Shown here one piece after another: positions 9,101 to 37,463 of a stretch of 37,463 nt of DNA. The stretch's first letter is position 1. The number at the start of each line of letters is the position of its first letter. The notes beneath the pieces are model-generated. The model searched no databases. It was not told the origin of the DNA and worked only from the letters and a program-made list of their open reading frames with translations. Source of the stretch: a virus; the IMG/VR virus record IMGVR_UViG_3300010334_000127, positions 1-37,463 of that record; one strand, given 5' to 3'. The position numbers and the translations under genes were made by a program.

Positions 9101-9609
9101 ACACAACAAATACTGTGGTAGAACCCACCATGCCCAGTATCGATGAATTGAGCACAGCATATCAAGGACTTCAAGATTACAAAATGATCAGCGATAATAT
9201 TATTTTAAATTCTGTAGTATTCAAACCGTTGTTTGGCGAAAAAGCCGCACAAAATCTTCGCGCTACGGTCAAAGTGATTCGCGCTCAAAATTCTACTGCC
9301 AGCAGCAGTGAGATCAAAAGCAGTGTGGTAGCTGCAATGAACGATTACTTTTCCATCGACAAGTGGAACTTTGGTGATACATTTTATTTCTCAGAACTGG
9401 CCGCATACCTACACAGACAGTTGGGAACAATCATTAGTTCGGTGGTACTGGTTCCTTTGAATTCGCAAAAGTATTTCGGGGATCTATATGAAATACGATC
9501 AGCTCCCAACGAAATATTTGTCAATGGTGCTACAATAAACAATATCGAAGTTATTGAAGCATTGACCAGTACCAACTTGCGTACTGCCCCTGGCAGCGGA
9601 GTAATTTAA
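6133..9609 (+). CDS. gp6: gp6-like baseplate wedge protein, enlarged
   Basis: At 1158 residues this is far longer than T4 gp6 (660). In T4, gp6 dimers form the inner ring of the baseplate that holds the wedges together. The N-terminal ~120 residues match the gp6 pattern (FETLRKSFVDYL, YIALLDVIAFMGQALAFRTDMN, TAERRDSVVRLANLVSYTAKR). The C-terminal ~140 residues also match (VVFKPLFGEKAAQNLRATVKV, WNFGDTFYFSELAAYLHRQLG, ISSVVLVPLN). The extra length lies in the middle (about residues 520-980), which is beta- and aromatic-rich. That insert carries a calcium-loop-like motif, RDSDNDGVPDNPDFF (residues 838-852). The gene is preceded by a late promoter and a purine-rich ribosome site, and its TAA overlaps the next ATG (TAATG). 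Confidence 0.92.
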   Translation: MAKTTRQTAIFGVQDWKQIYQTYREADFQSYDFETLRKSFVDYLRLNYPETFNDYIESSEYIALLDVIAFMGQALAFRTDMNTRENYIDTAERRDSVVRLANLVSYTAKRNIAAQGLLKVFSVTTTENVVDYQGVNLSNVTVDWADQTNPDWQEQFTAIINASLVDTQRVGRPGNRQTILGVRTDEYAINLVPGYLPIVPYTATVDGVNMPFEAMTSTSVGRDYLYEPSPKPNVPFNVLFRNDSLGFQSANTGYFFMFKQGVLQNQDFNLGERVANRTVNINIEGVNNEDRWLFQLDNVGTVSREWAYTENIYAAGGEQVATSTRPIYSVTSRTNDQITMVFGDGVFSEIPVGTFRAYVRASNGLQYIINPEEMQAVSIPISYISRAGNLETITFTCGITRPVSNSQARESIDAIKQRAPARYYTQNRMVNGEDYNLFPYTQYNSIVKSKALNRASIGTSRYLDLVDNTGKYSSTNTFGSDGGLWEQNILPTILFSWTNRNEIADAITNQFQPKLAETTSRQFYYDNFPRVTSTTLPAYGGTTWVTGANWVQSTTLANETTGYFRNTVYSTTWPNGSPIPVGSTTTTNFKYVAVGSLIKFVPPTGYYFDKNNKLQQGTPTSADQTLEIWASPLEIVGTGYNNGLGNLPSGAGPVSLNNFVPTGAIVDTIIPLFVTDLPQSLELAIAEQILLNRNFGIGYDNNGDITGTPYSWYLISSTNLAADSAWSQQYAGNTSGTNLDASWLVQFVVQNQNYTVTFRGLAYYFGSVLQTRFFFYDGAQVYDSRTGTVIRDFINCLAVNTKPDSTDHLPGDIYMTITGQPVESDGYVDDFQVLVGYRDSDNDGVPDNPDFFNEIVAPSTNPTQKYIYLQKTVDFDNLQRYLLVESGVVVSDYATYNQLELAKNEWSPGQVFYTYSDDAFYQLSIGATGIRTLVDASTDWIARTGRQQLYYQYRHNSPLTTRIDPGTTNIIDLYVVTLAYYTSYQNWIRDTTNTVVEPTMPSIDELSTAYQGLQDYKMISDNIILNSVVFKPLFGEKAAQNLRATVKVIRAQNSTASSSEIKSSVVAAMNDYFSIDKWNFGDTFYFSELAAYLHRQLGTIISSVVLVPLNSQKYFGDLYEIRSAPNEIFVNGATINNIEVIEALTSTNLRTAPGSGVI

Positions 9610-23889: not shown

Positions 23890-24491
23890 TAACTCCTGGT
23901 TTGTGCAAAATTGAAGGATTTGTCAAAATCCATGACCCTGTCACAGGCGAAGTTCTTGTGGACAAAAAGAACGCAATTCATTACGAAAACATATCCATTG
24001 CCATGGCTCAAACGCTGAGTGATCGCAACCTGGGATATATCTATCAAATGGCATTTGGCAATGGTGGTTCCAGCGTGGACCCCACAGGCGTTATCACATA
24101 CCTGCCGCCAAACACCACTGGTCAAAATGCCGACCTGTACAATCAAACCTATGCCAAAGTAGTTGACGATAATTCAGCAGCTGACACTGATCCTGAATAC
24201 AACAAAATGACAGTACTGCACACATCGGGCAATGTTTACACTGATATTTTGGTAACTTGTTTGTTGGACTATGGCGAACCCCCGCAACAACAAGCATTTG
24301 ATAACTCGACCAATTTCAATGGCGAGTATGTGTTTGACGAATTGGGTCTCAAATCCTGGAACGGCTCAGCTGATAATTTAAGATTGATCACTCATGTGAT
24401 TTTTCACCCAGTACAAAAAAGTCTGAATCGACAAATACAAATCGATTACACACTCAGAATACAGACATTGAGCAACATTAATGCTGTATAA
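23886..24491 (+). CDS. Putative virion structural protein, 201 residues
   Basis: The start has GGAGGG (23874-23879) 6 nt upstream. The N-terminus holds an I-x-D-P-x-T-G-E-x-L-V motif (KIHDPVTGEVLVDKKNAIHYEN). A Gly-rich core (YQMAFGNGGSSVDPTG, then ITYLPPNTTGQNADLYNQTY) follows, and the C-terminal half is beta-rich (FNGEYVFDELGL, LRLITHVIFHPV). I recall similar proteins near the tail fibre genes of T4-like marine phages, usually annotated only as structural proteins. It has no signal peptide or transmembrane segment. Lying between the giant protein and the tail fibre, it may link baseplate and fibre; this is inferred from position. Confidence 0.82.
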   Translation: MITPGLCKIEGFVKIHDPVTGEVLVDKKNAIHYENISIAMAQTLSDRNLGYIYQMAFGNGGSSVDPTGVITYLPPNTTGQNADLYNQTYAKVVDDNSAADTDPEYNKMTVLHTSGNVYTDILVTCLLDYGEPPQQQAFDNSTNFNGEYVFDELGLKSWNGSADNLRLITHVIFHPVQKSLNRQIQIDYTLRIQTLSNINAV

Positions 24492-24494
24492 ATA
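24487..24494 (+). promoter_or_regulatory. T4-type late promoter element before tail fibre gene
   Basis: TATAAATA is a perfect match to the T4 late-promoter -10 element. It overlaps the stop codon of the preceding gene. Expected transcription start is near 24500, leaving a leader of about 18 nt with AGGT (24507-24510) as the likely ribosome site before the ATG at 24518. Confidence 0.78.
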
Positions 24495-24517: not shown

Positions 24518-26539
24518 ATGGCCGCATATACAATTAATCTTACCGATGGCAGCGTTTTTGCTACCATCCCCGATGGTACTGTCAACCAGTCAAGTAGTGT
24601 AACTCTAGTGGGTAAAAACTTTGCTGGATACGGAGAATTTTTAGACGAAAATTTTATCCAGATGTTGGAAAATTTTTCAAAATCTACTGCGCCAGCTTCG
24701 CCCTTGACAGGTCAACTTTGGTGGGACAAAACCAACAGCCTGTTAAAAGTCTACAACGGTACACTGTTCAAAACTCTTTCATTTAGTACTGCCAGTTCCA
24801 CACAGCCCACAAGCAATGTGACTGGCGATTTATGGTACGATACCACAAACCAACAGCTCAAAGTTTACACTGGATCCAGCTTTATTGTGGTGGGCCCAGC
24901 ATACTCAAGTGCAACAGGAACCGCAGGTGCTATTCCTGAAACAATCAACGACAACGGAGCCACTCCGCACTATGTGACATCCTTGTATGTGGCCAACACC
25001 AGAGTTGCAATTTTTAGTACAGACTCAACATTTACTGCCGCAGCACCTGTCAGCACAACATTTCCCACAGTTTACAAAGGTGTGACATTTACCAATGCCA
25101 GCGGTACAAACATGGCAGGCAATATCATTAGTGGTAGCAATGTGGTTATCACTGCCGGAGGTGCAACCACAGCAACCATCACCAGTACCGGGGCCAACGT
25201 CACTGGTTACACCACAGTCAGTGGCAACATCACTGCTGGCAACGTGTTAACTGGCGGACTTGTCAGCGTTGCTGGCAATGTCACCGCCGCAAACTTCTTT
25301 GGCAATGTGGTCTCGCCTGCAGGTAGTAATGTCAGCACAACTGGTAACGTTACTGCTGGTAATATTTCCACCAGCGGCATAATATCTGCTGGTGGCAACA
25401 TAATTGGTACAAATCATCTGGGAACAACAGTTTCTGTCTCAGGCAATGTGACCGCTGGCAACGTACTATATGGCGCAGGCATAGTGTCGGGAACAGGTAG
25501 TGTTCTGGGTGGTATTGTGTCAGCCAGCGGAAACATCACTGCTGGCAACGTTTTGACCGGTGGCATTGTAAGTGCAGCTGGTAATATTTCTGGCAGCTAC
25601 TTTCAGGGCAACGGGTCACAACTCACTGGTTTGAGTTTGGGCGTTAGTGTCAGCAAAATCTCGTCTGGCAACAGTTATGCCAACATTGCAACGCCCGATG
25701 GCAACTTGGTAATTGGTGTTGCTGGTACTGCTGTGGTCACAATTGACAGCACAACAATTTATGGTACCAACGTCAGTGCCACAGGAACTATCAGAGCAGC
25801 CACAGTCAATGCTGCCACAATTGGTAATGCAAGTGCAGTACATAACGGAGCCACAGTAAGCATCACTGGTACTGTGACAGCAGCCACAGTCAATGCTGCC
25901 ACAATTGGTAACACTGGCGCCGCTGTCACAGCAGCCACAGTCAATGCTGCCACAATTGGTAACTCAAGTGCATCGTTCACCGGCGGCACCATCAGTCTAA
26001 GTGGTAACGTAACTACTTCTGGTGTTCTCTTGGTCAACAGCGGTGGTAACCCCACAGCCATTGTGAACAGTGCGGGCAACGTGACAGGTAATATTGGTTC
26101 GTCGACCGGTTACTTCAATCGAATCTTTGCTCAAGCAACCACAGCACTTTATGCTGACGTTGCAGAACGCTTTGCTGCCGATGAATTACTTGAAGCAGGA
26201 ACTGTGGTTGAACTGGGCGGCGCAGCAGAAATTACCAGATCTCTAACTGAATTGAGCGAAAATGTGTTCGGTGTGATAAGTACTCATGCAGCCTACTTGA
26301 TGAATGGCGGTGCAGGCGCAGACGACACACACCCTCCAGTTGCAATGACCGGACGTGTCCCAGTTAAAGTAGTAGGTGTTGTACACAAAGGCGATAGATT
26401 GGTCAGTGCAGGCAATGGCATTGCCAGAGCTGCGAAACCAGGCGAAGCAACATCATTCAACGTGATCGGACGAAGTCTGGTTGACAAACTCACCCCTGAA
26501 TCAAGTACAATTGAAGCTATTGTGACTATCAAGAATTAA
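24518..26539 (+). CDS. Tail fibre protein with repeats and C-terminal peptidase_G2-like domain
   Basis: This 673-residue protein has three parts. Residues ~1-90 are a conserved-looking attachment region (YTINLTDGSVFATIPDGTVN, then FLDENFIQMLENF and GQLWWDKTNSLLKVYNG). Residues ~200-530 are a low-complexity shaft of repeats around S-G-N-(I/V)-T-A-G-N-V-L-x-G-G and TAATVNAATIGN, fitting a trimeric beta-structured fibre. The last ~130 residues start at LYADVAERFAADELLEAGTV and include FGVISTHAAYLMN and VPVKVVG. That resembles the C-terminal domain of many phage fibres related to Peptidase_G2, which helps trimer folding and may cleave itself. I have not identified catalytic residues. It is probably a host-recognition or side fibre; the late promoter just upstream suits high expression. 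Confidence 0.85.
   Translation: MAAYTINLTDGSVFATIPDGTVNQSSSVTLVGKNFAGYGEFLDENFIQMLENFSKSTAPASPLTGQLWWDKTNSLLKVYNGTLFKTLSFSTASSTQPTSNVTGDLWYDTTNQQLKVYTGSSFIVVGPAYSSATGTAGAIPETINDNGATPHYVTSLYVANTRVAIFSTDSTFTAAAPVSTTFPTVYKGVTFTNASGTNMAGNIISGSNVVITAGGATTATITSTGANVTGYTTVSGNITAGNVLTGGLVSVAGNVTAANFFGNVVSPAGSNVSTTGNVTAGNISTSGIISAGGNIIGTNHLGTTVSVSGNVTAGNVLYGAGIVSGTGSVLGGIVSASGNITAGNVLTGGIVSAAGNISGSYFQGNGSQLTGLSLGVSVSKISSGNSYANIATPDGNLVIGVAGTAVVTIDSTTIYGTNVSATGTIRAATVNAATIGNASAVHNGATVSITGTVTAATVNAATIGNTGAAVTAATVNAATIGNSSASFTGGTISLSGNVTTSGVLLVNSGGNPTAIVNSAGNVTGNIGSSTGYFNRIFAQATTALYADVAERFAADELLEAGTVVELGGAAEITRSLTELSENVFGVISTHAAYLMNGGAGADDTHPPVAMTGRVPVKVVGVVHKGDRLVSAGNGIARAAKPGEATSFNVIGRSLVDKLTPESSTIEAIVTIKN
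25796..25962 (+). repeat. Three identical 32-bp repeats in the tail fibre gene
   Basis: Exact 32-bp copies lie at 25796-25827, 25880-25911 and 25931-25962, starting GCAGCCACAG and ending ACAATTGGTAA. Each encodes AATVNAATIGN. The last two are 51 bp (17 codons) apart and the first two 84 bp, both multiples of three, so copies can be gained or lost in frame. Confidence 0.9.
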
Positions 26540-26550
26540 TAGGGATAAAA

Positions 26551-27552
26551 ATGACATACTCCAGCGGCAGCCTGATTCAAGCAACAGATTATAATGGATT
26601 TGTAAGCACCACCTCTGGCGCCAACTTGAATGACATCTGGGGCACAGGTTCTGGGGACAAAGGCTGGGGACAAACTCCACTGGCCACAGTTGCCGCTGGT
26701 ACCGACACAGTCACAGCCACACAATGGGCTGGCTTGGTCAACAACTTGGCCAGCGCCGGCAGTCAGACCAATACTGCAATCACAGCAAGAACTGCACCCA
26801 CTACCGGGCAAACTGTTGGCGTCTTATCTGCACTCAACACTGATATCATCAACTGTACTACCAACCGTGGTAACACACCGGCTCAAAGCGCACGAGTACT
26901 GGCCTGGACTGGTAGTGTATCAAAAACCACAACCACAGGCACAGGCAATGCTGCCTGGAGTATCACATGGACACACACTGTGGATTTTGGGACAGCTAAT
27001 CAGGCCAGATATTTTTGGAACGCAGGCGGCACCGTGGTCATGTACATGAACAAAACATCCACTGGTCTAGACAGCGATCCAGATTGGAACGCATTTGTCC
27101 CCCCTGTGGTTGGACAATTGACCATGGCCGGCAGAGTCAACAGCGCCGCACAGACCATCGCTGGGGTAAGTCAGCCTGGATTTACCAGAACAGGCAGCGG
27201 AGGAACCACCACCATTGCATCAAACACAGGCTGGTACTCGCTCACAGCCGGTGCAGCAGCCAGTCAAATGTTTTTGTGTTATGATACAGCAAGTCCTTAT
27301 ACAGGTGATTATGTACAAGTCATGGCCGCCAAAAATGCTGGATCCACAGCGTTAACTTTTACAACATATTGGGTCAGCACTGCCAGAACAGGTGCTGGAC
27401 AGAACACTCAGATCTCAGGCGGTACAGCTACCTCAAGTCCATACTCGGCTTGGGGCACAGCACCTGCGGTGTTGGTAGGATACTATCCGCCGGCAACTAC
27501 ATACCTAAGCGCCAGTTGGGGCACACCTACTGTCAGTGCCACAGTGGCCTAA
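26551..27552 (+). CDS. Fibre-like virion protein, 333 residues
   Basis: The ATG has AGGG at 26541-26544, 6 nt upstream, and lies 11 nt after the fibre gene stop. The N-terminus (SSGSLIQATDYNGFVSTT, then LNDIWGTGSGDKGWGQ) and the following helical stretch with TATQWAGLVNNLASAG resemble virion proteins found beside tail fibre genes in T4-like marine phages. The rest is beta-rich and Thr/Gly/Ala-rich (ITWTHTVDFGTANQARYFWN, FTRTGSGGTTTIASN). Cysteines are few and there is no membrane segment. It is the last gene before the terminator. A fibre tip, adhesin or decoration protein is plausible, but no binding motif is recognisable. Confidence 0.8.
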   Translation: MTYSSGSLIQATDYNGFVSTTSGANLNDIWGTGSGDKGWGQTPLATVAAGTDTVTATQWAGLVNNLASAGSQTNTAITARTAPTTGQTVGVLSALNTDIINCTTNRGNTPAQSARVLAWTGSVSKTTTTGTGNAAWSITWTHTVDFGTANQARYFWNAGGTVVMYMNKTSTGLDSDPDWNAFVPPVVGQLTMAGRVNSAAQTIAGVSQPGFTRTGSGGTTTIASNTGWYSLTAGAAASQMFLCYDTASPYTGDYVQVMAAKNAGSTALTFTTYWVSTARTGAGQNTQISGGTATSSPYSAWGTAPAVLVGYYPPATTYLSASWGTPTVSATVA

Positions 27553-27566
27553 TTGGCTAACCTGGC

Positions 27567-27595
27567 AGGTAAAAGGTAGACTTTTACCTTTTTTT
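27567..27595 (+). terminator. Strong intrinsic terminator ending the structural block
   Basis: A perfect 9-bp stem (AGGTAAAAG at 27567-27575 pairing with CTTTTACCT at 27581-27589) has a 5-nt loop (GTAGA) and runs into a 7-T tract (27589-27595). It lies 15 nt after the fibre-like gene and separates virion genes from the glycosyltransferase/radical SAM cassette. Confidence 0.88.
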
Positions 27596-27605
27596 CCTGT
27601 ACAAT
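27577..27605 (+). promoter_or_regulatory. Possible sigma70-like promoter for the cassette
   Basis: TACAAT (27600-27605; five of six match TATAAT) lies 17 nt after TAGACT (27577-27582; four of six match TTGACA). The -35 overlaps the terminator stem. The predicted start falls at about the ATG at 27612, which has no Shine-Dalgarno sequence, so a leaderless message would result. This is weak on sequence alone. Confidence 0.3.
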
Positions 27606-27611
27606 AATCTT

Positions 27612-27920
27612 ATGAATACTGATGCACTAGTGGCTCACGCACGAGCCAGATTTGATCACGCTGCTGCCCGACGCACCCTGCGGGAAAAATACGAAGCACG
27701 TATGTTGTTTGCTCATGCAGGTGGCATGTGGCGAGCTGGACCTGATCTGCAATGCACCTTGTTGAGTTGTGCCCAGGACAAGGATGTGATATTATTAGAC
27801 CTGTACGAAACCCCAATTCGTGTCAACGTACCCGAACTGTATGCTCAAGCACACAGCCACTGGCAGGAGCAAATGAATGCCTGGTTGATAGAATACCAAA
27901 AATTAAATCAAAACAGATGA
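27612..27920 (+). CDS. Small conserved-looking protein, 102 residues
   Basis: Function not recognised. The first half is a basic helix (LVAHARARFDHAAARRTLREKYEARMLFAHAG has this character), followed by MWRAGPDLQCTLL, a strand-like VILLDLYETPIRVN, and a final helix with HWQEQMNAWLIEYQ. I recall similar small proteins beside tail fibre genes in marine T4-like phages, without a known role. It is the first gene after the terminator; there is no Shine-Dalgarno sequence before its ATG, while a weak -10-like box lies 6 nt upstream. Its TGA overlaps the next ATG (ATGA), so it is coupled to the first glycosyltransferase-like gene. Confidence 0.78.
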   Translation: MNTDALVAHARARFDHAAARRTLREKYEARMLFAHAGGMWRAGPDLQCTLLSCAQDKDVILLDLYETPIRVNVPELYAQAHSHWQEQMNAWLIEYQKLNQNR

Positions 27921-28720
27921 CCACAGGCGCACTAATATTTGCTTTCAACAACGAACAAACAGATTACATACGCATGGCCTCTTGGTCAGCTCGCAATATA
28001 AAACGGCATTTGAAAATACCAACCGCGGTGGTTACCAATGATCCGGACCGTGCAAAAAAATATCGATTTGATCAGATCATAGTGGCTGAATCAGAGTCAG
28101 GTGGCACAAGATATTTTGATGATTATGCTGATTCAGTGACCTGGCACAATGCCAACAGAACAGATGCGTATACACTATCTCCTTGGGACAGAACCCTGGT
28201 ACTAGACGCAGACTATGTGGTAGCCAGCAATCGACTGAAAATTCTATTAGATTGCAATCAAGATTTTTTGGCACACAAACTAGCGTATGATATTGTGCAC
28301 CAAGACAATTTTGCAGAACTAAACAATTTTGGAAATTACAGCATGCCCATGAGTTGGGCCACTGTGATGATGTTTCGCAAGAGCCAGCATGCACAATTGA
28401 TATTTGAAGCCATGCGCATGATCAAAAACAACTGGAAACACTACACAGATTTATATCAGATTCGTACTGCCACCTACAGAAATGATTATGCACTGGGCAT
28501 GGCACTGGGCATCATGAGTGGACAAACATTTGATTATCCGATCATACCCTGGGATCTGGCCAGCGTCACGCCCGAACATGCAGTCACCTGCATTGGCCTG
28601 GATCACTATCGTGTGGACTATGCAGACCAAGAACAACGCCCAAAATGGATTACCATAAAAAATCAAGACTTCCATGCCATGGGCAAACGACATCTGGAGA
28701 ATATAATTGAAACCCGTTGA
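27917..28720 (+). CDS. Glycosyltransferase-like protein (GT-A type, DxD motif)
   Basis: This 267-residue protein starts at the ATG overlapping the previous stop; the frame is open further upstream, but that part only shadows the preceding gene. The N-terminus has the GT-A look (GALIFAFNNEQTDYIRMASW, SARNIKRHLKIPTAVVTNDP). A DxD-type motif follows a typical strand (WDRTLVLDADYVVAS, about residues 92-106); DxD binds the metal and nucleotide-sugar phosphate in such enzymes. Later aromatic motifs (YSMPMSWATVMMFRKS) and the conserved-looking NDYALGMALGIMSG suit an acceptor side. The donor and acceptor sugars are unknown. It opens a run of glycosyltransferase-like and radical SAM genes. No membrane segment is visible, so it is probably cytoplasmic. 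Confidence 0.8.
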   Translation: MTTGALIFAFNNEQTDYIRMASWSARNIKRHLKIPTAVVTNDPDRAKKYRFDQIIVAESESGGTRYFDDYADSVTWHNANRTDAYTLSPWDRTLVLDADYVVASNRLKILLDCNQDFLAHKLAYDIVHQDNFAELNNFGNYSMPMSWATVMMFRKSQHAQLIFEAMRMIKNNWKHYTDLYQIRTATYRNDYALGMALGIMSGQTFDYPIIPWDLASVTPEHAVTCIGLDHYRVDYADQEQRPKWITIKNQDFHAMGKRHLENIIETR

Positions 28721-29492
28721 AGAACAAGGCTACTTGATAGTGGCGTCGAACACAGCAGACACAAACTATGTGAATTGTAGTGAGACCTTGGCCAAAACAA
28801 TCAAGTACTGGCATCCAGCAGCAAAGATCTGTTTGCTGACCAACCAGCAGGTGAGCACAGGGCCGCTGTTTGACTATGTACATGAATTCCCGTTTGCATT
28901 CAACAATGACAATCCTTATGCCAACGACTGGCAAGTGTTCCATGCCACACCATTCAGAGAAACTATCAAACTGGAATCAGACATGTTGATTACCAGTCCC
29001 ATTGATCATTGGTGGACTATGTTGCGACATCGAGACATTGTGGTCAGCACAGGCTGCAGGGACTGGCAGGATCGGCGTGCTCGATCAAGACATTATCGCC
29101 AGGTGTTTGATGCCAACAATTTGCCCGATGTCTATAACGCTATCACATACTGGCGACTATCAACTGCTGCGCAACAGTTTTTTAACACAGTGCATGATAT
29201 ATTTGAAAACTGGGATCGATTCAAGACAATGTTAAAATATCCAGAAGATACGCCCAGCACAGATGTGGTATATGCCATGGCTGCAATTGTTGCAGGACCA
29301 GAACATTGTACCATGCCGTTTGCTTCGTATCCTACTATTGTGCATATGAAACGTCATATCATTGCAAGCCAACGAGAAAATTGGTCAGAAGAATTGTTAT
29401 GGGAATACAACAATTACCTGCTGCGGGTAAACACACATGTACAACATGGTGCTGTGCATTACAATGTCAAGGATTGGCCAAGTGGACGCTGA
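28707..29492 (+). CDS. Glycosyltransferase-like protein with TTG start
   Basis: The best start is TTG at 28707, because GGAGA (28696-28700) lies 6 nt upstream and no ATG fits. This gives 261 residues and a 14-bp overlap with the previous gene. The fold pattern is GT-A-like: YLIVASNTADTNYVNCSETL at the N-terminus, then ICLLTNQQV, and an acidic motif after a strand (IKLESDMLITSPIDHWW) where the DxD would be. E-S-D in place of D-x-D still offers acidic metal ligands. Later parts (NAITYWRLSTAAQQFF, YAMAAIVAG) parallel the neighbouring enzyme's FNNEQ-type partner, suggesting a distant paralogue. Substrates are unknown. Confidence 0.72.
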   Translation: MKPVEEQGYLIVASNTADTNYVNCSETLAKTIKYWHPAAKICLLTNQQVSTGPLFDYVHEFPFAFNNDNPYANDWQVFHATPFRETIKLESDMLITSPIDHWWTMLRHRDIVVSTGCRDWQDRRARSRHYRQVFDANNLPDVYNAITYWRLSTAAQQFFNTVHDIFENWDRFKTMLKYPEDTPSTDVVYAMAAIVAGPEHCTMPFASYPTIVHMKRHIIASQRENWSEELLWEYNNYLLRVNTHVQHGAVHYNVKDWPSGR

Positions 29493-29814
29493 TGAGTTTT
29501 GGTCAATCCTGCACAACATGCCTGCGCCCCAGCCGGTGTTGTTTCGATTGTATTACGATCAAAATGGTAAACCAATTCAGTACAGCCACCAAGACTTGCC
29601 AGGTACATACATCGACGTTGATCCAAAGGACTTTGGCAGCATGAATGTGCAGGTGCAAGATGGCCGATTGATTCGGCTTGCAAACAAAACAACAACCAAG
29701 AAACTGGTACCCGGCGACGCCGGCACGCCGTGTCATCCTGACAATGTGGCCATAGTGGTCTCGGAGTCTGAACCACATCAACGATGGAAATTAAAAACTT
29801 ATGAAACAGATTGA
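29482..29814 (+). CDS. Small unknown protein between glycosyltransferase genes
   Basis: The frame is open from an ATG at 29437, but most of that overlaps the previous gene. I prefer GTG at 29482, giving 110 residues, because AAGGA (29469-29473) lies 8 nt upstream and the overlap is then only 11 bp; ATG 29464 (116 residues) is the alternative. The protein reads VDADEFWSILHNMPAPQPV, FRLYYDQNGKPIQY, DLPGTYIDVDPKDF and ends NVAIVVSESEPHQRWKL. It looks like a compact alpha/beta or beta-sandwich protein. The segment GTPCHPDNVAIVV carries the only cysteine. No known family is claimed. Overlaps on both sides show it is an integral part of the cassette. Confidence 0.7.
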   Translation: MDADEFWSILHNMPAPQPVLFRLYYDQNGKPIQYSHQDLPGTYIDVDPKDFGSMNVQVQDGRLIRLANKTTTKKLVPGDAGTPCHPDNVAIVVSESEPHQRWKLKTYETD

Positions 29815-30724
29815 CATAGCAGACCTAGACTGCATCTTTTTGACCTATGATGAACCACAACGTGAAGAGTTTTGGGTCAAAGTTAAAAACATGGTACCTT
29901 GGGCTGTGCGTGTGGACGGAGTAAAAGGATCTGATGCTGCACACAAGGCCGCTGCTGCTGCCAGCACTACCGAACGCTTTGTTCTAATTGATGGCGATAA
30001 CATGCCTGACCCTGAGTTCTTCAACAAGACTCTGGTCTACTCTACTGAACAGCACGAACAGGCAGTTTATCGTTGGCGAGCAAGAAATCACATCAATGGA
30101 CTCATGTATGGCAACGGTGGCTTGAGCTCTTGGACTCGCACATTCGCTGACCGCATGCGCACACACGAAGCCACCGACGGTCGAACAGAAACACAAGTGG
30201 AGTTTTGTTTTGATCCCTTGTATTGGCCCATGTACGATTGTTACTCAAATACCTATCCCAACGGATCCCCCTTTCACGCCTGGCGTGCTGGATTCCGCGA
30301 AGGTGTCAAAATGTGCCTGCAACGTGGTGCCAAACCCACTGTGGCCGAATTCAAAAATCAAGTGTTGCGCAACCTAGATCACATGACCATATGGCACAAC
30401 GTGGGTGCAGATGCAGAACACGGTGAGTGGGCCATTGCTGGTTCCAGGCAAGGCACCTACATGACCATGCTTACAAATTGGGATCACACTCTGGTCCAGG
30501 ATTTCAATGCCTTGGCCGAATTATGGCTAACAGTGAAAGATTCCCAACCGCGCATGCTGAGCAATCAACTGGGTCCTGAACTGGGTCAACAGTTGGACCT
30601 GCCTGTGGCCATATTGGAATCAGAACAAAGTGCTTTTTTTAAATATCACTATCGTTCAAACTGGCACAATCGTGGTGTCATGATCCGAGAAATAGACGTT
30701 ATTAGACAACAAGAAGGCTGGTAA
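29801..30724 (+). CDS. Glycosyltransferase-like protein with DGDN motif
   Basis: This 307-residue protein overlaps the previous gene by 14 bp. A beta-alpha start (DCIFLTYDEPQREEFW) leads to the motif FVLIDGDNMPDPEFFN (residues ~66-81), in which D-G-D after a hydrophobic strand is a GT-A style metal/nucleotide site. The middle has RWRARNHINGLMYGNGGLSSW and a Tyr/Trp-rich block (FDPLYWPMYDCYSNTYPNG) that could bind sugars. The region around HAWRAGFREGVKMCLQRG is helical. It differs clearly from the two preceding glycosyltransferase-like proteins, so it is a separate subfamily. It could also be a nucleotidyltransferase-like enzyme; the donor is unknown. No signal peptide. Confidence 0.75.
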   Translation: MKQIDIADLDCIFLTYDEPQREEFWVKVKNMVPWAVRVDGVKGSDAAHKAAAAASTTERFVLIDGDNMPDPEFFNKTLVYSTEQHEQAVYRWRARNHINGLMYGNGGLSSWTRTFADRMRTHEATDGRTETQVEFCFDPLYWPMYDCYSNTYPNGSPFHAWRAGFREGVKMCLQRGAKPTVAEFKNQVLRNLDHMTIWHNVGADAEHGEWAIAGSRQGTYMTMLTNWDHTLVQDFNALAELWLTVKDSQPRMLSNQLGPELGQQLDLPVAILESEQSAFFKYHYRSNWHNRGVMIREIDVIRQQEGW

Positions 30725-30753
30725 AAGTAGTAATTAACAAGCCAGACCCTCCA

Positions 30754-32139
30754 ATGACAGATTCAAATAAAAGTAAATTCCTTTCGTCGGCTGAACAAAT
30801 GAAACAGGACCTGGGTCCTGCACTGTGTTTGGCCAAGTGGAAACAGGTCAGCTTACATCTGACCACAGGACTCAACAACTCTTGCTATCATCCGCCCTTG
30901 CACATGATAGACCCTGAAGCAATCAAAACCAACCCTGCTGCTCTACACAATACTTGGCACAAAAAAGCACAGCGAAAAATAATGCTTCAGCAGGAGCGTC
31001 CCACTGAATGTTCCTACTGCTGGAACATGGAAGACCAAGGCAAGCTGAGTGACCGACACTATCGTTCGGGCGAACCCTGGGCCGCAGTGGATTTTGAAAA
31101 GATAAAGAACTCAACCGGAGATGAAGATGATATTATCCCTAGTTACGTGGAAGTTAATTTTAATCATGCTTGCAATCTGCGGTGTAGTTATTGCAGCCCT
31201 CAGTTTAGTAGTTCATGGGCAGATGAAGTGTCTAGACTTGGTGCATATCCTACCTTGGTGCCTCATAATGCTCCTGAGCATTTTACTGGGAGCCGTCGCC
31301 CTATACCTGTCCGCGAGCATAATCCCTATGTAGAAGCATTTTGGTCATGGTGGCCCACGCTGTACCCCGAACTGGTACACTTTCGCATGACTGGTGGCGA
31401 GCCCTTGATGGATCGTAACACCTATCGAGTGTTTGATTATGTGTTGGCCAATCCCAGTCCTCGGTTGCATTTAAATGTAACATCAAACTTCAGTGTAGAA
31501 GATGAACTGTTTGAAAAGTATTTGAACTATGTCAAACAGTTGTGTACACCCAACATAGAACACTTTATGCAGTATGTTAGCTTGGATTCAGGGCGCGGCC
31601 CACAAGCCGAATACATTAGACACGGTATGAATGCTGACCGTGTGGTACGCAATGTAAATCGTTATCTAAGTGAAGTTCCCAATCGGAACAGTCTTACATT
31701 CATTATTACCATGAACAATCTCAGCGTCACAGGCTTTCGTGACTACATGGAATGGATTTTGCACCTGCGCCGCACACACAGCCATACCTATCAACGTGTG
31801 TGGTTTGATACTCCTGTACTACGAGAACCTGCTTGGCAAAGTCTACAAACCCTGCCCGAAAGTTATGCGCAACAACTAGAACAAGCACGTGATTACATGC
31901 TGGAGAATCTGACCACTGAAGCCAATCCCTTGCACGGATTCAAAGACTACGAAGTACAACGCCTGGAGCGTGACATTGCCTGGATGCGTAGTGCTCAAAC
32001 ACAGGATCATTCGGTTACCCGAGCAGACTTTTATCGTTTCTTTGCAGAACATGACCGCAGACGCGGTACCAACTTCTTGGAAACTTTCCCAGAAATGAAA
32101 AGCTGGTGGGCAGAATGTGAATATCATGCCAAACAATAA
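30754..32139 (+). CDS. Radical SAM protein with N-terminal twitch-like domain (copy 1)
   Basis: This 461-residue protein has CNLRCSYC (C140, C144, C147), the CX3CX2C site for the SAM-cleaving [4Fe-4S] cluster, and GGEP at residues 214-217, which binds SAM. An EYIRHG motif follows around residue 290. Cysteines before the barrel (C25; C44 in SCYHPP; C86 and C89 in CSYCW) suggest an auxiliary iron-sulphur cluster in an N-terminal twitch-type domain, as in the phage family annotated as N-terminal twitch radical SAM proteins. The C-terminus has DRRRGTNFLETFPEMKSWW. No clear Shine-Dalgarno sequence precedes ATG 30754; ATG 30799 is possible but would leave less N-terminus. It is a paralogue of the gene at 33250. 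Substrate unknown. Confidence 0.9.
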   Translation: MTDSNKSKFLSSAEQMKQDLGPALCLAKWKQVSLHLTTGLNNSCYHPPLHMIDPEAIKTNPAALHNTWHKKAQRKIMLQQERPTECSYCWNMEDQGKLSDRHYRSGEPWAAVDFEKIKNSTGDEDDIIPSYVEVNFNHACNLRCSYCSPQFSSSWADEVSRLGAYPTLVPHNAPEHFTGSRRPIPVREHNPYVEAFWSWWPTLYPELVHFRMTGGEPLMDRNTYRVFDYVLANPSPRLHLNVTSNFSVEDELFEKYLNYVKQLCTPNIEHFMQYVSLDSGRGPQAEYIRHGMNADRVVRNVNRYLSEVPNRNSLTFIITMNNLSVTGFRDYMEWILHLRRTHSHTYQRVWFDTPVLREPAWQSLQTLPESYAQQLEQARDYMLENLTTEANPLHGFKDYEVQRLERDIAWMRSAQTQDHSVTRADFYRFFAEHDRRRGTNFLETFPEMKSWWAECEYHAKQ

Positions 32140-33262
32140 ATTGATACTGGATGCTTCTTGTGAAACACACCAGTACATACATCAACACGCAACAGATTTC
32201 TTTCACGATTTTGCAAGTCACGACATTGATACAGATGCTGTGTATGTGATCGGACGAATACAATTTGCCAACAACAAAGTCAAAATTAGAGAACTGATAG
32301 AGAATCACAATCTACGAGTGGTGTTTTGCAATCCGTTTGAAGGTTCTGAAACATTGAGAATGCAGATGCTGGCACACGGATTTGAAGACCTGGTGCTGGC
32401 CAAAAAACTGCTGATAGTCAGTGGAGGAGATCTAGAGCCTGGTTGGACCTACATGCTTTATGATTTTTTCCTGCCCAAGATTCACGACTTTGACGAAAAC
32501 CAACAGGCCTGTGCCAGAGCTGAAGAAATATATTCAAACACTGCCAAACCCTACAAGTTTCTGTTTCTAAACGGACGCGGACGCAGTCACAGAAAATGGA
32601 TGACCGAATACCTTGGACACAATCAACTGCTAGACTCGGCTGTTTGGTCCTGGCTGGATCCCAGCAGTAGAATGGCCCGCGGATTACACTTGATGGTAGA
32701 CGGCCACAATCTCATGGCCCGTGAGCGGGATCTAAAGTTCCTGGCGCCAATGTACGAAATACCAAGATACCATAAAAATTTAAATGTACCACCTGGCACA
32801 GTATTTGCCAAATACGAACTGTTTGATCGAGAATGGGGAGAAATATATATCAATGCCAACTGCTATATAGATACCTATTTCAGTGTGGTCACCGAAACGG
32901 TGTTTGAATATCCTCACAGTTTTAGAACAGAAAAAATATGGAAACCCATTGCCATGGCTCATCCTTGGATAACTGTGGCCAACCGTGGGTTTTATCGAGA
33001 CATGCACAATCTGGGATTCCAAACATTTGGACACATAATTGACGAAACATTTGATCTGATTGACAACAACCAGGATCGAATCGAGCGTGTGGGTGCTGTG
33101 ATAAAAGATTTGTGCCAGCAAGACCTTGCAAAATTTCTCAATGAGTGTTATACTGTATGTAAATATAATCAGCAACATCTTCTGTCTATCCGCGAACCTG
33201 TAAAAAATGCATTTGCTGATAGATTTCTAACCTTTCTTAAAAACAATCAATGGATGACTTGA
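32117..33262 (+). CDS. Glycosyltransferase-like protein (GT10/exostosin-like C-terminus)
   Basis: This 381-residue protein starts at GTG 32117, preceded by GGTGGG (32105-32110) at 6 nt; ATG 32126 is an alternative. The middle has KPYKFLFLNGRGRSHRKWM, a basic motif common in GT-B-like sugar transferases. The C-terminal third has FRTEKIWKPIAMAHPWITV followed by LGFQTFGHIIDETFDLI; the TEK-x-W...P pattern is characteristic of the nucleotide-sugar site in fucosyltransferase-like (GT10) and related enzymes. It overlaps both neighbouring radical SAM genes (23 and 13 bp). The incomplete protein at the right edge has a related motif (KFFLLLMNQKRDNRDQLL). The sugar is unknown; fucose is not implied by the motif alone. 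Confidence 0.78.
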   Translation: MNIMPNNKLILDASCETHQYIHQHATDFFHDFASHDIDTDAVYVIGRIQFANNKVKIRELIENHNLRVVFCNPFEGSETLRMQMLAHGFEDLVLAKKLLIVSGGDLEPGWTYMLYDFFLPKIHDFDENQQACARAEEIYSNTAKPYKFLFLNGRGRSHRKWMTEYLGHNQLLDSAVWSWLDPSSRMARGLHLMVDGHNLMARERDLKFLAPMYEIPRYHKNLNVPPGTVFAKYELFDREWGEIYINANCYIDTYFSVVTETVFEYPHSFRTEKIWKPIAMAHPWITVANRGFYRDMHNLGFQTFGHIIDETFDLIDNNQDRIERVGAVIKDLCQQDLAKFLNECYTVCKYNQQHLLSIREPVKNAFADRFLTFLKNNQWMT

Positions 33263-34581
33263 CCTTCAAACACACAATATTAGACACCAAGTCAGCAAGT
33301 TTTTGTGCAGCAAAATGGTACAACGCTACCATCTGGCTGGGTTCAGGCATGACCACGTCGTGTCACCACCCGCCGGCCCATTTGGTGGACATTGATAAAG
33401 TCCGGTCCAACCCTAGGCTGTTGCACAATACTGATCAAAAGAAAGAAGATCGCAGAAAAATGATTGCGGGCGAACGCCCAGCTGGTTGTGAATACTGCTG
33501 GAAAATTGAAGACATGGGACGTGATGCTGTATCAGACCGTGTGTACAAATCACGAATATTTCCTATAAAGGCACTAGATGAAGCATACCAAACTCCGTAT
33601 ACCGAAGACGTCAATCTTCGCACTCTTGAAATCGCATTTGACCGTACTTGCCAATTTGCTTGTAGTTATTGTAACCCTGCTTTCAGTAGCACATGGGTTA
33701 ACGATATCAAACGAAACGGTCCATATGTCGATTTGGTGTCAGATGGGCGTAATCACTTTACTCACACTCACGATAGTGCTCAACTATACAAGTTTGGTGA
33801 AGTTAACCCGTATGTTGAAGCGTTCTTTGACTGGTGGGAAAGTGACCTACATAGCACACTCCAAGAACTAAGAATTACCGGTGGTGAACCGCTCATGTCA
33901 GGCTATACTTGGAAACTGATTGATTGGTTTAAAACAAATCAAGGCAAGAGCAAGACCAAATTGGCCATTAATTCTAATCTTGGAACTGAAGTGGACATTG
34001 ATAGATTGTTGACCAGCATCGATGGCATGAACATAGACCTGTACACGTCAAATGAAGCGGTCAGTCTGCAAGCAGAGTACATACGTGATGGCCTGATCTG
34101 GGACGACTGGGCCAACAATGTAGAACGTTTGCTTGATAGCAACAAGTTCCGTGGCATACATGTGATGTGTACTGTCAACGCATTGTGTTTGGATAGTTTA
34201 GATAGTCTATTGGATTGCATATTGAACTGGAAACTGGAATATGGCAAACAAGCCATCAGCTTCACCTTGAACATTTTGCGTTTCCCTAGTTTTCAAAGCC
34301 CGTTGATACTGCCTGCAGAATTAAAAACACACTATAAAAAAGTGTTAGAAACTTGGCTGGCACAAAATGGCAGCAATAGATTTTTACACGAGCATGAAAT
34401 AAACCATTTGCAAAGATTAATTGATTATCTAGATGTGGTCAAAACTCCACATTCAGAAGCATTTGAGCAGCCCAAATTGTTGAATGACTTCAAACAGTTT
34501 TATACACAATATGACCAACGCCGCGGTAAAGATTTTGGTCATGCGTTTCCCAATTTAAAAGCATGGTACGATTCACTGTAA
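33250..34581 (+). CDS. Radical SAM protein with N-terminal twitch-like domain (copy 2)
   Basis: This 443-residue protein is a paralogue of the gene at 30754. The SAM cluster site is CQFACSYC (C134, C138, C141) and GGEP is at 211-214. N-terminal cysteines are C19, C38 (SCHHPP) and C80/C83 (CEYCW), in the same layout as copy 1. Shared blocks include AKW near residue 21, the SC-x-HPP motif, GERPxxCxYCWxxED, SDR-x-Y, EYIRDG and the final DQRRGKDFGHAFPNLKAWY. The ATG overlaps the preceding glycosyltransferase gene by 13 bp and has no Shine-Dalgarno sequence, so it probably depends on translational coupling. Substrate unknown; sequence divergence from copy 1 in the middle suggests different substrates or a heteromeric pair. 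Confidence 0.9.
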   Translation: MDDLTFKHTILDTKSASFCAAKWYNATIWLGSGMTTSCHHPPAHLVDIDKVRSNPRLLHNTDQKKEDRRKMIAGERPAGCEYCWKIEDMGRDAVSDRVYKSRIFPIKALDEAYQTPYTEDVNLRTLEIAFDRTCQFACSYCNPAFSSTWVNDIKRNGPYVDLVSDGRNHFTHTHDSAQLYKFGEVNPYVEAFFDWWESDLHSTLQELRITGGEPLMSGYTWKLIDWFKTNQGKSKTKLAINSNLGTEVDIDRLLTSIDGMNIDLYTSNEAVSLQAEYIRDGLIWDDWANNVERLLDSNKFRGIHVMCTVNALCLDSLDSLLDCILNWKLEYGKQAISFTLNILRFPSFQSPLILPAELKTHYKKVLETWLAQNGSNRFLHEHEINHLQRLIDYLDVVKTPHSEAFEQPKLLNDFKQFYTQYDQRRGKDFGHAFPNLKAWYDSL

Positions 34582-35841
34582 ATGAGCTACAACTACAATT
34601 CCACAGACCTTAACACGCCAACAGAACTCACTGAACATGAGCAGTTTCTGCTGCATGATTCAAAGACATTCTGCATGTATCCCTGGATACATTTGCATGC
34701 ATATCCCACAGGAGAAGTACATCCTTGCTGCCATGCTGAATGGAAAGAAACACCGTTGGGCAATGCTCGTGAAAGCACACTAGAAGAAATATGGCATGGG
34801 CAACCAATGGCACAGCTTCGTGCCGACATGCTGAGTGAAACTCAGCATCCATCCTGCACACGTTGTTATGAACAAGAAGCAGCAGGGTTCTTTAGTGGTC
34901 GTAAATCGGCCAACAAGCATCACGGACATAACATAAAGAAGCTGAAGTCTGCACCATTTGAAATGACCTACTGGGACATACGTTTTTCAAACCTATGTAA
35001 TCTACGTTGCAGAACCTGCGGCCCCACATTCTCATCACAGTGGTACCAGGATCAAGTGCAGCTGGTCGGACCCGAATGGGGCAAACACAATCGTGTGCTG
35101 AACATAGCAGGCAGCAGCAAAGATGACATGTGGCAACAACTACAGCCGCACCTGGACCATGTGGAAAAGATATACTTTGCTGGTGGTGAACCGTTGCTGA
35201 TGGACGAGCACTACAATATACTAGACGAGCTGGTGCGCAGGGAAAGATTTGATGTAAGGTTGCTATACAACACAAACTTCACGCACACACAGCTGAAGGA
35301 TAGATCAGTATTTGAATACTGGCGACTGTTTAAATCTGTTTCGGTGGGTGCAAGCCTAGACGATCAAGGTGCCAGAGCAGAATACATACGCAAAGGCACT
35401 GAATGGGATATTGTGGTACGCAATCGTCAAGAAATGTTGCATGTATGCCCGGGAGTAGACTTTTATATCAGCCCCACACTAAGCATAATGAACGCTTTGA
35501 GTTTGCCCCAATTTCATCGCGACTGGGTGGCACAAGGGTATATCCGTGCCCAGGACCTTAATGTAAACATCTTACAGGATGGCGCACACTATCGCATAGA
35601 CATAGCCACGCCTGAATACAAAACACGCATACAGCAGCTATATCAAGAACACCTGGAATGGCTGCGCCCGCAAGACCACTTGCAACGTGCAACAACAGGA
35701 TTTGAATCTGCTATCAATTTTCTAAACGCCACAGACAACACACATCTATTGCCTAAATTTTGGCACAATATGGCACAGCTTGATGCCATACGCAGTGAAG
35801 ACATATTGACTGTTATACCTGAATTGCAGGCACTGAAATGA
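34582..35841 (+). CDS. Radical SAM protein with N-terminal SPASM/twitch module (copy 3)
   Basis: This 419-residue protein starts directly after the previous stop (TAA then ATG) without a Shine-Dalgarno sequence. The SAM cluster site is CNLRCRTC (C139, C143, C146) and GGEP is at 201-204. The N-terminal part carries a SPASM-like pattern, CMYPWIHLHAYPTGEVHPCC (C31, C49, C50), followed by SCTRC (C92, C95). In most SPASM enzymes this module follows the barrel; here it precedes it. SLDDQGARAEYIRKG is shared with the next gene (SIDDLGQRFEYQRSN). The C-terminus has LDAIRSEDILTVIPEL. SPASM/twitch enzymes commonly act on peptides or on sugars; which applies here is unknown. Confidence 0.9.
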   Translation: MSYNYNSTDLNTPTELTEHEQFLLHDSKTFCMYPWIHLHAYPTGEVHPCCHAEWKETPLGNARESTLEEIWHGQPMAQLRADMLSETQHPSCTRCYEQEAAGFFSGRKSANKHHGHNIKKLKSAPFEMTYWDIRFSNLCNLRCRTCGPTFSSQWYQDQVQLVGPEWGKHNRVLNIAGSSKDDMWQQLQPHLDHVEKIYFAGGEPLLMDEHYNILDELVRRERFDVRLLYNTNFTHTQLKDRSVFEYWRLFKSVSVGASLDDQGARAEYIRKGTEWDIVVRNRQEMLHVCPGVDFYISPTLSIMNALSLPQFHRDWVAQGYIRAQDLNVNILQDGAHYRIDIATPEYKTRIQQLYQEHLEWLRPQDHLQRATTGFESAINFLNATDNTHLLPKFWHNMAQLDAIRSEDILTVIPELQALK

Positions 35842-37049
35842 ACATACCACACCCTAAATTTTGTGTATTGCCCTGGGTCAGCTTGGAAGCCAGCCCAATT
35901 GGAACTGTACGTCCATGCTGTCTAGCCGATGACGAAATCGTTGACAACAATGGCGACAAATTTGAATTGCATACTGCCAACTTTGGCGACATACAAAACA
36001 GCCGTCACATGCAAAGCATACGACAGCAGTTTCTAGCAGGTGAACAACCCCAAACATGTCGCAAGTGCTGGAATGAAGAACGCAGTGGCCGCACCAGCAA
36101 ACGCATGCATACTCTGGACAGAATGAAGCACATGGGAATTGACTCGGAATGGACAGCAGAAGCTAAACCACTCATGTTCTTGGATCTGAAATTGGGCAAT
36201 ATCTGCAATTTAAAATGTCGCATATGCGGATCCTGGAGCTCAAGTCAATTCGCGTCAGAAGAGATTGCACAATTACCGCCGGAACAAAAGAAAAAATCAC
36301 ATGCCTATACCATGCTCCGGGCCGGAGCCTGGCCACAAGAAAACCAGCAGTTTTGGACCGAAATAGACAGTGTGTTGAATGATATTCGCTATATTGAATT
36401 CACTGGCGGAGAACCATTCATGATTGACGAACACTTTGATATGTTGCAAGGCATCATTGATCGTGGCATCGCTCATCAAGTTGAAATACACTACAATACC
36501 AATGGCACACAATACCCTGCCAGAGGGCAAGAAATTTGGTCGCATTTTAAAACTGTGGAAGTGGCGTTCAGCATTGACGATCTAGGCCAAAGATTTGAGT
36601 ATCAACGCAGCAACGCAGACTGGGCAGTGGTACTGGACAATATCACAAGTTTTCAATACCTTCAAACTCAGATGCCCAACTTGCAGTTGCAATGTTGTAG
36701 CACCGTGAATGTGTTTAACATACGCTATATTGATCAACTGGCCCAGTGGATAGAGTTGCAAAAGTTTGACTTTGTGTACTGGAATATCATGCACGATGCC
36801 TGGTACTTCAGTGTTGCCACACTGCCAGATTTGGCCAAAGCTGAGATCTCTGAACATTTACGTTCCGCAGCGGTACCATCTCAGTATCGCAAGGAATTTG
36901 ATCGCATCATCGATTTCATGAACAACGGTGCCTCCACAGATGGCTTTATGTTGCGAATGAAAATTGCTGACCTAGATCGCAAACGACAACAGGATTTAAA
37001 TTCAGTAGAGCCAGAGTTTGCTAAATTGATTGACTATCAAAAATCATGA
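35838..37049 (+). CDS. Radical SAM protein with N-terminal SPASM/twitch module (copy 4)
   Basis: This 403-residue protein begins at an ATGA overlap with copy 3, with GCAGG 7 nt upstream. The SAM cluster site is CNLKCRIC (C123, C127, C130) and GGEP is at 190-193. The N-terminal SPASM-like pattern is C9-VLPW, then G-TVRPCC (C27, C28), then CRKCW (C74, C77). It resembles copy 3 much more than copies 1 and 2, especially in the CxxPW...PCC block and the SIDD...W motif. The C-terminus has LDRKRQQDLNSVEPEF, matching the common end motif of all four. A cytoplasmic enzyme with oxygen-sensitive clusters is expected. Substrate unknown. Confidence 0.9.
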   Translation: MNIPHPKFCVLPWVSLEASPIGTVRPCCLADDEIVDNNGDKFELHTANFGDIQNSRHMQSIRQQFLAGEQPQTCRKCWNEERSGRTSKRMHTLDRMKHMGIDSEWTAEAKPLMFLDLKLGNICNLKCRICGSWSSSQFASEEIAQLPPEQKKKSHAYTMLRAGAWPQENQQFWTEIDSVLNDIRYIEFTGGEPFMIDEHFDMLQGIIDRGIAHQVEIHYNTNGTQYPARGQEIWSHFKTVEVAFSIDDLGQRFEYQRSNADWAVVLDNITSFQYLQTQMPNLQLQCCSTVNVFNIRYIDQLAQWIELQKFDFVYWNIMHDAWYFSVATLPDLAKAEISEHLRSAAVPSQYRKEFDRIIDFMNNGASTDGFMLRMKIADLDRKRQQDLNSVEPEFAKLIDYQKS

Positions 37050-37463
37050 AACCCAAAATTTTATATACCAGTATTGCTCCATTTCAGCCCTGGATGATGC
37101 CACTGTGGCAGGATCATGTTGACGTAGAACCTTTTGATCCTGACAGGACTTATGATGTAAAAAATTGCATGGTCATGATTGACGATCGCTACGATAAACG
37201 GGAATTGTATCAAACTGTAAAATCTCAAGGATATAGAACAATACTAGACTATACCTGGGATACCAATCAAGGCGAATCATATCAAATCACAGACAGTGAA
37301 CTGGTTTTAAAGTCAAGTGAATGGATTCGTATTCACGAGCCCTTGATGTGGCGGCATAAAAATTATCATGTGCCACGAGAACAATGCTGCCCAGACAAAT
37401 TTTTCTTGTTGTTAATGAATCAAAAAAGAGACAACAGAGATCAACTGTTGAACGCCGCAACTC
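37046..37463 (+). CDS. Glycosyltransferase-like protein, 3' end cut by window
   Basis: The ATG overlaps the previous stop (ATGA) and the frame stays open for 139 codons to the right edge. It begins MKPKILYTSIAPFQPWMMPL, continues VMIDDRYDKRELYQTVKSQG and TILDYTWDTNQG, and reaches CCPDKFFLLLMNQKRDNRDQ. The last block resembles KFLFLNGRGRSHRKWM of the protein at 32117, so the two are likely to be of the same broad glycosyltransferase-like family. The diagnostic C-terminal TEK-x-W region would lie outside the window. It continues the cassette, which therefore extends further to the right. Confidence 0.75.
   Translation, partial: MKPKILYTSIAPFQPWMMPLWQDHVDVEPFDPDRTYDVKNCMVMIDDRYDKRELYQTVKSQGYRTILDYTWDTNQGESYQITDSELVLKSSEWIRIHEPLMWRHKNYHVPREQCCPDKFFLLLMNQKRDNRDQLLNAAT

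Follow-up and report, generated by a model that had tools for sequence, protein, structure and literature searches.

A conserved island of radical SAM and glycosyltransferase-like genes behind the tail fibre genes of giant freshwater phages: a candidate pathway for virion decoration

The IMG/VR record IMGVR_UViG_3300010334_000127 is a linear fragment of viral DNA, that stands as a separate record and was analysed here at its full length of 37,463 nucleotides (the window). The DNA ends inside an island of enzyme genes that lies directly behind the tail fibre genes fibA and fibB, and the carriers of this island are giant freshwater viruses of bacteria. Our open reading frame (ORF) analysis found 11 consecutive ORFs on the plus strand from position 27612 to the window end (Table 1), encoding five glycosyltransferase (GT)-like proteins (GT1 to GT5), four radical S-adenosylmethionine (SAM) proteins (RS1 to RS4) and two small proteins (s1 and s2). 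An initial annotation, made from the letters alone, had described the same composition, most genes overlapping and no gap over 30 nt. The spacing is as described: eight of the ten junctions overlap, one is abutting (34581/34582) and the largest gap measures 29 nt. The arrangement in alternation was overstated, as the order from GT1 on is GT, GT, s, GT, RS, GT, RS, RS, RS, GT, with RS2, RS3 and RS4 consecutive. No cassette protein of the window has a hydrophobic segment of membrane-span length, and all are predicted to be soluble. The s1 protein had no match in INPHARED.

The gene order recurs in 56 distinct IMG/VR contigs of up to 353 kb, as fibA-fibB-s1-GT1-GT2-s2-GT3-RS1-GT4-RS2-RS3-RS4-(GT)-RS5-f5-carbamoyltransferase, followed by an amidinotransferase on the opposite strand; s2 was found in 45 of the 56 loci. 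Some marine contigs that had been binned with bacteria (L092-L094, L141, L146, L152) contain diverged copies in the same order. Because order and identity recur in the 56 viral loci and in these marine contigs, the cassette is confirmed as real and not a product of chance. Our first scan used RS3 as its anchor; it therefore contains radical SAM genes by construction, but this does not hold for the remaining genes or for the order in which they stand. Further scans, which took GT1 or the structural gene g23886 as anchor, are free of this bias. Among the 52 g23886-anchored contigs with 9 kb of downstream sequence, fibA was found in 52, GT1 in 51, GT3 in 52, RS1 in 50 and RS2 in 49, and 50 of the 52 count as carriers of the cassette. 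These contigs are nearest relatives by descent, and the counts measure linkage inside one lineage, not independent events. The proposal of a dedicated, non-structural enzyme system behind the fibres is borne out, since the system is conserved and tied to the fibre genes in relatives. It was drawn too small, because the relatives add RS5 (54 loci), f5 (49), the carbamoyltransferase (48) and, on the opposite strand, the amidinotransferase (31) and more GT4-family genes, and then f14 (21), the later counts being limited by the length of the retrieved flanks.

The radical SAM assignments are firm. RS1, RS2, RS3 and RS4 match NCBIfam NF033640 (N_Twi_rSAM, curated cut-off 170 bits) over their full length with 315, 292, 387 and 333 bits, respectively. 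Their mutual identity of 20-32% indicates that they are not recent copies of one another. RS5, which lies beyond the window, was placed as a type by a radical SAM profile built in this analysis. Each of RS1 to RS5 was found in 53 to 56 of the 56 loci, mostly as a single gene with few extra copies of RS2 to RS4, and median identity to the reference (L005 for RS5, the window for the other types) is 71-75%. In the 51-57 aligned sequences per type, the CxxxCxxC motif and the four twitch cysteines N-terminal to it are 100% invariant, and every type has one additional invariant cysteine at a location of its own (RS1 C264, RS2 C313, RS3 C289, RS4 C287, RS5 C260). From these motifs, cluster binding and SAM cleavage are predicted for all five. 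The structure model of RS4 (predicted local distance difference test score, pLDDT, 89.5) places this additional cysteine, C287, within strand 282-290 and has viperin, anSME, SkfB, a sactipeptide enzyme (5why) and BlsE as its closest solved structures. As these neighbours mix nucleotide-type and protein substrates, the substrate cannot be read from the modelled fold. The twitch part of RS4 has a weak profile match (E 0.003) to BtrN, a twitch/SPASM radical SAM enzyme from aminoglycoside-type pathways with a cyclitol substrate; the twitch auxiliary cluster domain is alike in both, and it is N-terminal here and C-terminal in BtrN.

Support for the five GT-like proteins is uneven. The structure model of GT4 (pLDDT 94.4), the only one of the five modelled, has a GT-B-type fold; its top PDB match is the GT10 fucosyltransferase 2nzw (E 1.8e-3, probability 0.99, template modelling score ~0.4), followed by other GT-B enzymes. 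At the sequence level, PF00852 (GT10) gave no match in the GT4 family in three relatives, and the hhalign comparison with GT10 was weak. GT5 clusters with the GT4 family, and its GT-like status follows from this membership. GT1 and GT2 are homologous (hhalign E 5e-16) and carry invariant DxD-type residues, D97-A-D99 and E90-x-D92. GT2, which falls into PHROG 1903, a group of unknown function, was linked to the GT8 family in a single, not strong, profile comparison (hhalign E 4.5e-4); the same comparison gave no match for GT1. GT3, conserved at about 76% among relatives, was linked to the GT2 family in another single comparison of modest strength (hhalign E 0.003), and its E of 0.025 to Pfam Glyco_tranf_2_3 falls short of the cut-off. 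PDB sequence searches with the GT1, GT2 and GT4-family profiles gave no match. Pfam scans of GT1 to GT3, with diverged marine relatives included, also returned nothing significant, and we therefore regard the reading of these three as glycosyltransferases as moderately supported. Neither of the two findings that the initial annotation named as refuting it was made: the genes co-occur in related phages, and GT4, the protein compared by structure, has a GT-B-type fold. Three Atu_ph07 proteins, gp166, gp169 and gp170, were compared as GT1/GT2 relatives and rejected.

Upstream of the island lie the tail genes of a jumbo myovirus: baseplate hub/lysozyme, baseplate wedges, a 4703 aa protein, g23886, fibA and fibB. 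A wedge protein of 1158 aa (6133-9609) shares 31-35% identity with counterparts in Atu_ph07, Salicola SCTP-2, Phosso, GAP32-type phages and Paride. The 4703 aa ORF (9609-23720) follows the baseplate wedge gene and is probably ordinary for this phage group, since Atu_ph07, Phosso and Paride have giant virion proteins at the matching position. Homologues of fibA are found in the same three phages (E 1e-66, 4e-73 and 1e-62, respectively), and the fibB product has a conserved C-terminal motif, PP.TTYL..SWGTP. The island has transcription signals separate from those of the fibres. A hairpin with a T run stands between fibB and s1 at nearly every locus, and TAYAAT lies 5-7 nt 5' of the s1 ATG in 37 of 40 distinct loci, preceded in the window by a -35 box of the TTTACT/TAGACT type at a spacing of 17 nt. 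From this closeness of the -10 box to the ATG, the window transcript would start at or adjoining the s1 ATG, in a putatively leaderless design. ATAAATA-type elements resembling T4 late promoters are found 5' of fibA in seven of eight listed loci; in the window, the one match to TATAAATA is no more than chance would give (1.1 expected).

Table 1. Features of the fibre region and the island in the window
Feature	Position (nt)	Strand	Remarks
T4-late-promoter-like element TATAAATA before fibA	24487..24494	+	motif match
fibA	24518..26539	+	tail fibre-like virion protein; candidate acceptor
fibB	26551..27552	+	second fibre-like protein; candidate acceptor
Hairpin terminator and T run, fibB/s1 intergenic	27567..27589	+	
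Sigma70-type promoter TAGACT-17-TACAAT	27577..27605	+	-10 end 6 nt from s1 ATG
s1	27612-27920	+	102 aa, no assigned function; neighbour of fibre genes in every case
GT1	27917-28720	+	GT-A/GT8-like by invariant D97-A-D99; GT2 relative
GT2	28707-29492	+	TTG start; GT-A/GT8-like, invariant E90-x-D92
s2	29437 (ATG) or ~29482 (GTG) to 29814	+	~113-125 aa, no assigned function
GT3	29801-30724	+	GT2-family-like, weak profile links
RS1	30754-32139	+	N-terminal-twitch radical SAM enzyme, NF033640
GT4	32117 (GTG) or 32126 (ATG) to 33262	+	GT-B-type fold, GT10 (fucosyltransferase)-like
RS2	33250-34581	+	N-terminal-twitch radical SAM enzyme, NF033640
RS3	34582-35841	+	N-terminal-twitch radical SAM enzyme, NF033640; SPASM match 9e-15
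RS4	35838-37049	+	N-terminal-twitch radical SAM enzyme, NF033640
GT5	37046-37463, open at window end	+	5' part of second GT4-family protein

The distal part of the island is known from the relatives. Their carbamoyltransferase (f6) has both Pfam domains above cut-off (PF16861, 4e-47; PF02543, 1e-34), and their amidinotransferase (f12) matches AGAT (E 7e-19) with the catalytic H188 and C327 aligned; its profile also matches StrB1 and SxtG. Variable slots hold an NAD epimerase, a GDP-mannose dehydratase, an FkbM methyltransferase, a tryptophan-halogenase-family protein, an AMP-binding enzyme and SGNH proteins. The radical SAM subfamily itself is common among Bdellovibrionota and is also present in other bacteria; in bacterial genomes its gene neighbours encode GT2-family proteins, carbamoyltransferases, nucleoside diphosphate (NDP)-hexose 2,3-dehydratase, a DegT aminotransferase, an Asp hydroxylase and, at locus L099, an amidinotransferase. 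These neighbourhoods point to a role of N_Twi_rSAM in sugar-type pathways.

Other radical SAM genes occupy the same place in related phages. Six GT1-anchored loci without RS1 and RS2 keep the order fibA-fibB-s1-GT1-GT2-s2-GT3, and in at least three of them (L196, L198, L201) other radical SAM genes follow GT3, one adjoining an Asp/Asn hydroxylase gene. In Atu_ph07 and Phosso, PapB/DynA-like radical SAM genes stand behind the g23886 and fibA homologues; the Atu_ph07 site additionally holds a JmjC/cupin protein. Both phages encode a fibre-like protein, some 300 aa long, that ends in DFCHSSCHASCHNSRSRR or DYCHTSCHASCHSSRSRR (CHxS repeats). In Paride, fibre homologues are present and our profiles detected no radical SAM gene in the retrieved region. 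Hence, at least three radical SAM toolkits occupy a single fibre-adjacent site. It is mainly for this reason, a comparative argument rather than proof, that we lean to a virion acceptor.

Altogether, we propose that the island encodes a cytosolic pathway making a radical-modified, carbamoylated or amidinated glycan that is attached to a virion fibre, a proposal whose product and acceptor we infer and which we regard as evenly poised. GT1 to GT3 (GT8-like, GT2-like) would initiate and lengthen a sugar chain on FibA, FibB or a neighbouring fibre, and GT4 and GT5 (GT10-like) would attach branches. As the glycan or glycopeptide grows, RS1 to RS5 would abstract hydrogens from it at defined positions, with epimerisation, dehydration, oxidation or coupling as the possible outcome. 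The carbamoyltransferase, the amidinotransferase and the products of the variable genes (an epimerase, a methyltransferase and SGNH proteins among them) might append the final groups, giving phage-specific versions, and the decorated fibre may tune receptor binding or shield the virion. The proposal draws on the fibre linkage of the g23886-anchored contigs and on the conservation and invariant cysteines of RS1 to RS5. A sugar product is suggested by the nearness of GT4 to GT10, the links of GT2 to GT8 and of GT3 to the GT2 family, the carbamoyl- and amidinotransferases, the epimerase, GDP-mannose dehydratase and FkbM genes, the weak match of RS4 to BtrN and the bacterial neighbourhoods of N_Twi_rSAM genes. 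A fibre acceptor is favoured by the other radical SAM sets that sister phages carry at the same site together with JmjC or Asp-hydroxylase genes, by the CHxS-tailed fibre-like neighbour in Atu_ph07 and Phosso and by a YadA-head protein beside two radical SAM genes in a related jumbo phage. Potential N-glycosylation sequons were given no weight, because FibA exceeds shuffled sequences (21 against 13.4 +- 3.0) and FibB does not (2 against 4.9).

Several points weigh against this proposal. GT1 to GT3 lack significant Pfam matches, as noted above, and we know of no function for N_Twi_rSAM in any organism. Large contigs have up to about 12 N_Twi_rSAM genes above cut-off, and several of those elsewhere in the genomes sit among helicase genes, not fibres. 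The sigma70-like promoter of the island, unlike the late-type element of fibA, would also fit early expression and action on the host. The main competing explanation, for which this promoter also speaks, is that at an early stage of infection the island remodels the host surface (lipopolysaccharide core, O-antigen or capsule sugars), excluding competing phages or preventing virions from sticking to debris. Surface glycans commonly bear carbamoyl, methyl and GT10-like functions, which adds to its appeal, and the GT cassettes of the pelagimyophage host recognition cluster were read in this way by their authors (PMC7029224). We nevertheless consider this explanation unlikely, as the island stands within the fibre module in all relatives. 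Furthermore, among ten large relatives (contigs of 178-353 kb; the records may be incomplete, but the absence is uniform and the control profiles gave matches), an initiating phosphoglycosyltransferase (PF02397 Bac_transf, PF00953 Glycos_transf_4) and a flippase (PF01943 Polysacc_synt) were found in 0 of 10. Although a host-made lipopolysaccharide core could still act as acceptor, the missing lipid-linked start and flippase and the predicted solubility of the proteins favour the fibre over the host surface. Thus, of the two targets named in the initial annotation, fibres or host surface, both are possible and the evidence leans to the fibres.

The radical SAM enzymes might instead modify the fibre polypeptide directly, by cross-links or epimerisation of the kind seen in ribosomally synthesised and post-translationally modified peptides (RiPPs), with the GTs glycosylating the same fibre independently, so that the fibre would carry two protein modifications instead of a single modified glycan. 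The structural neighbours anSME, SkfB and SuiB of RS4 act on proteins or peptides, and at the same site of the rhizobial jumbo phages radical SAM genes of the PapB/DynA (peptide maturase) type lie beside the CHxS-tailed fibre-like protein. Yet viperin and BlsE, with nucleotide-type substrates, are also among the RS4 neighbours, and the carbamoyl- and amidinotransferases, like the NDP-sugar enzymes, speak for sugars or small molecules as substrates. Moreover, FibA, FibB, s1 and s2 have no Cys-rich or repeated core motif, and a motif search for RiPP-type precursors (repeated or Cys-rich core) found none in the window or the N_Twi loci and found them only in sister phages. We therefore hold direct peptide modification to be improbable. 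A still fainter prospect is that the pathway produces a small, diffusible molecule resembling a glycoside, or that phage DNA is what it modifies. Amidinotransferases, carbamoyltransferases and radical SAM enzymes co-occur in aminoglycoside- and guanidine-type pathways, in keeping with the matches to StrB1 and SxtG, and phage GTs do modify DNA, as cited in PMC12619734. Against both stands the location of the island in the fibre module, and against DNA modification the count of 0 in the ten contigs for a thymidylate-synthase-family base hydroxymethylase (PF00303).

If virion decoration is correct, the virus may encode five dedicated radical SAM enzymes that work in several steps to alter a glycan or glycopeptide on its own fibre, separate toolkits being exchanged at that site across jumbo phages. 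That this represents a virion decoration class not previously known is a tentative suggestion, less secure than the pathway itself. As far as we found, a many-enzyme chemistry line of this sort has not been described before in a virus; in a literature search with subscription papers mostly outside its reach, no paper brought together radical SAM enzymes and GTs with the tail fibres of a jumbo phage. The nearest counterpart is the pelagimyophage host recognition cluster, a variable island by the tail fibres with GT and radical SAM cassettes (PMC7029224). That cluster was described as non-syntenic and variable, whereas the present island has a fixed order and five core radical SAM genes in a different, jumbo phage group. 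The Atu_ph07/Phosso cassette is alike in its site and in having several radical SAM genes alternating with others, and differs in its PapB/DynA-like enzymes with C-terminal SPASM, its JmjC/cupin gene, its CHxS-tailed protein and the lack of recognisable GT1 to GT3. Mycobacteriophage virions are glycosylated by phage-encoded GTs, there on capsid and tail tube and with no radical SAM chemistry known (cited in PMC12619734). The moraphage lineage treated in that paper, the text of which does not mention radical SAM, gave no sign of identity with the present lineage. A Burkholderia jumbo phage carries cupin, radical SAM and 2-oxoglutarate oxygenase genes (PMC8066314). Compared with the NF033640 subfamily at large, of which RS1 to RS4 are full-length members, the phage enzymes stand out as five orthologous types in a conserved set with GTs. 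For this widespread subfamily without known substrate, the phage cassette supplies fixed partners and a candidate acceptor, the fibres, and the cultivated related phages Atu_ph07 and Phosso make the chemistry testable by virion mass spectrometry. Were radical-modified glycans present on fibres, receptor recognition would not be wholly encoded by the fibre sequence, which matters for host-range prediction.

Further observations were made along the way. In the variable island part, tryptophan-halogenase-family genes (PF04820) are found at L045:18475-19719 and in L048. At the far end of the island in many relatives, f14 (L042:19765-21252; family present in 21 loci) encodes a protein of some 500 aa in which YVFGNQW...PGATE.KYM units recur and which has no meaningful Pfam family. 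The Bdellovibrionia genome G007 (C1:745513-774880; L099, L111) has 33 N_Twi_rSAM matches, more than 12 of them in one 30 kb stretch, with amidinotransferase and Asp/Asn hydroxylase genes nearby. The related jumbo phage mentioned above (L334, G013:131500-146000) has a YadA-head repeat protein, and a short distance behind it come two N_Twi_rSAM genes and a gene with a weak match to an SGNH-type family. Finally, we surveyed CHxS tails in Atu_ph07 gp170 (L087:21122-22009), L088 and 73 IMG/VR stretches (L360-L432), scanning for TCN serine codons only, so that the counts are lower bounds. The motif is C-terminal in at least 57 ORFs, some being chance repeats, and at least 36 of these have a radical SAM-like ORF within 4 kb. 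In phages, proteins ending in CHxSCHxSCHxSR[GS]RR, mostly of about 170-300 aa, adjoin a radical SAM gene of 345-380 aa, and the CHxS-tailed protein would seem to be a so far unnamed virion protein whose tail is RiPP-like. Where such loci were read fully, fibre genes and further radical SAM genes lie nearby, with an oxygenase-like gene in one.

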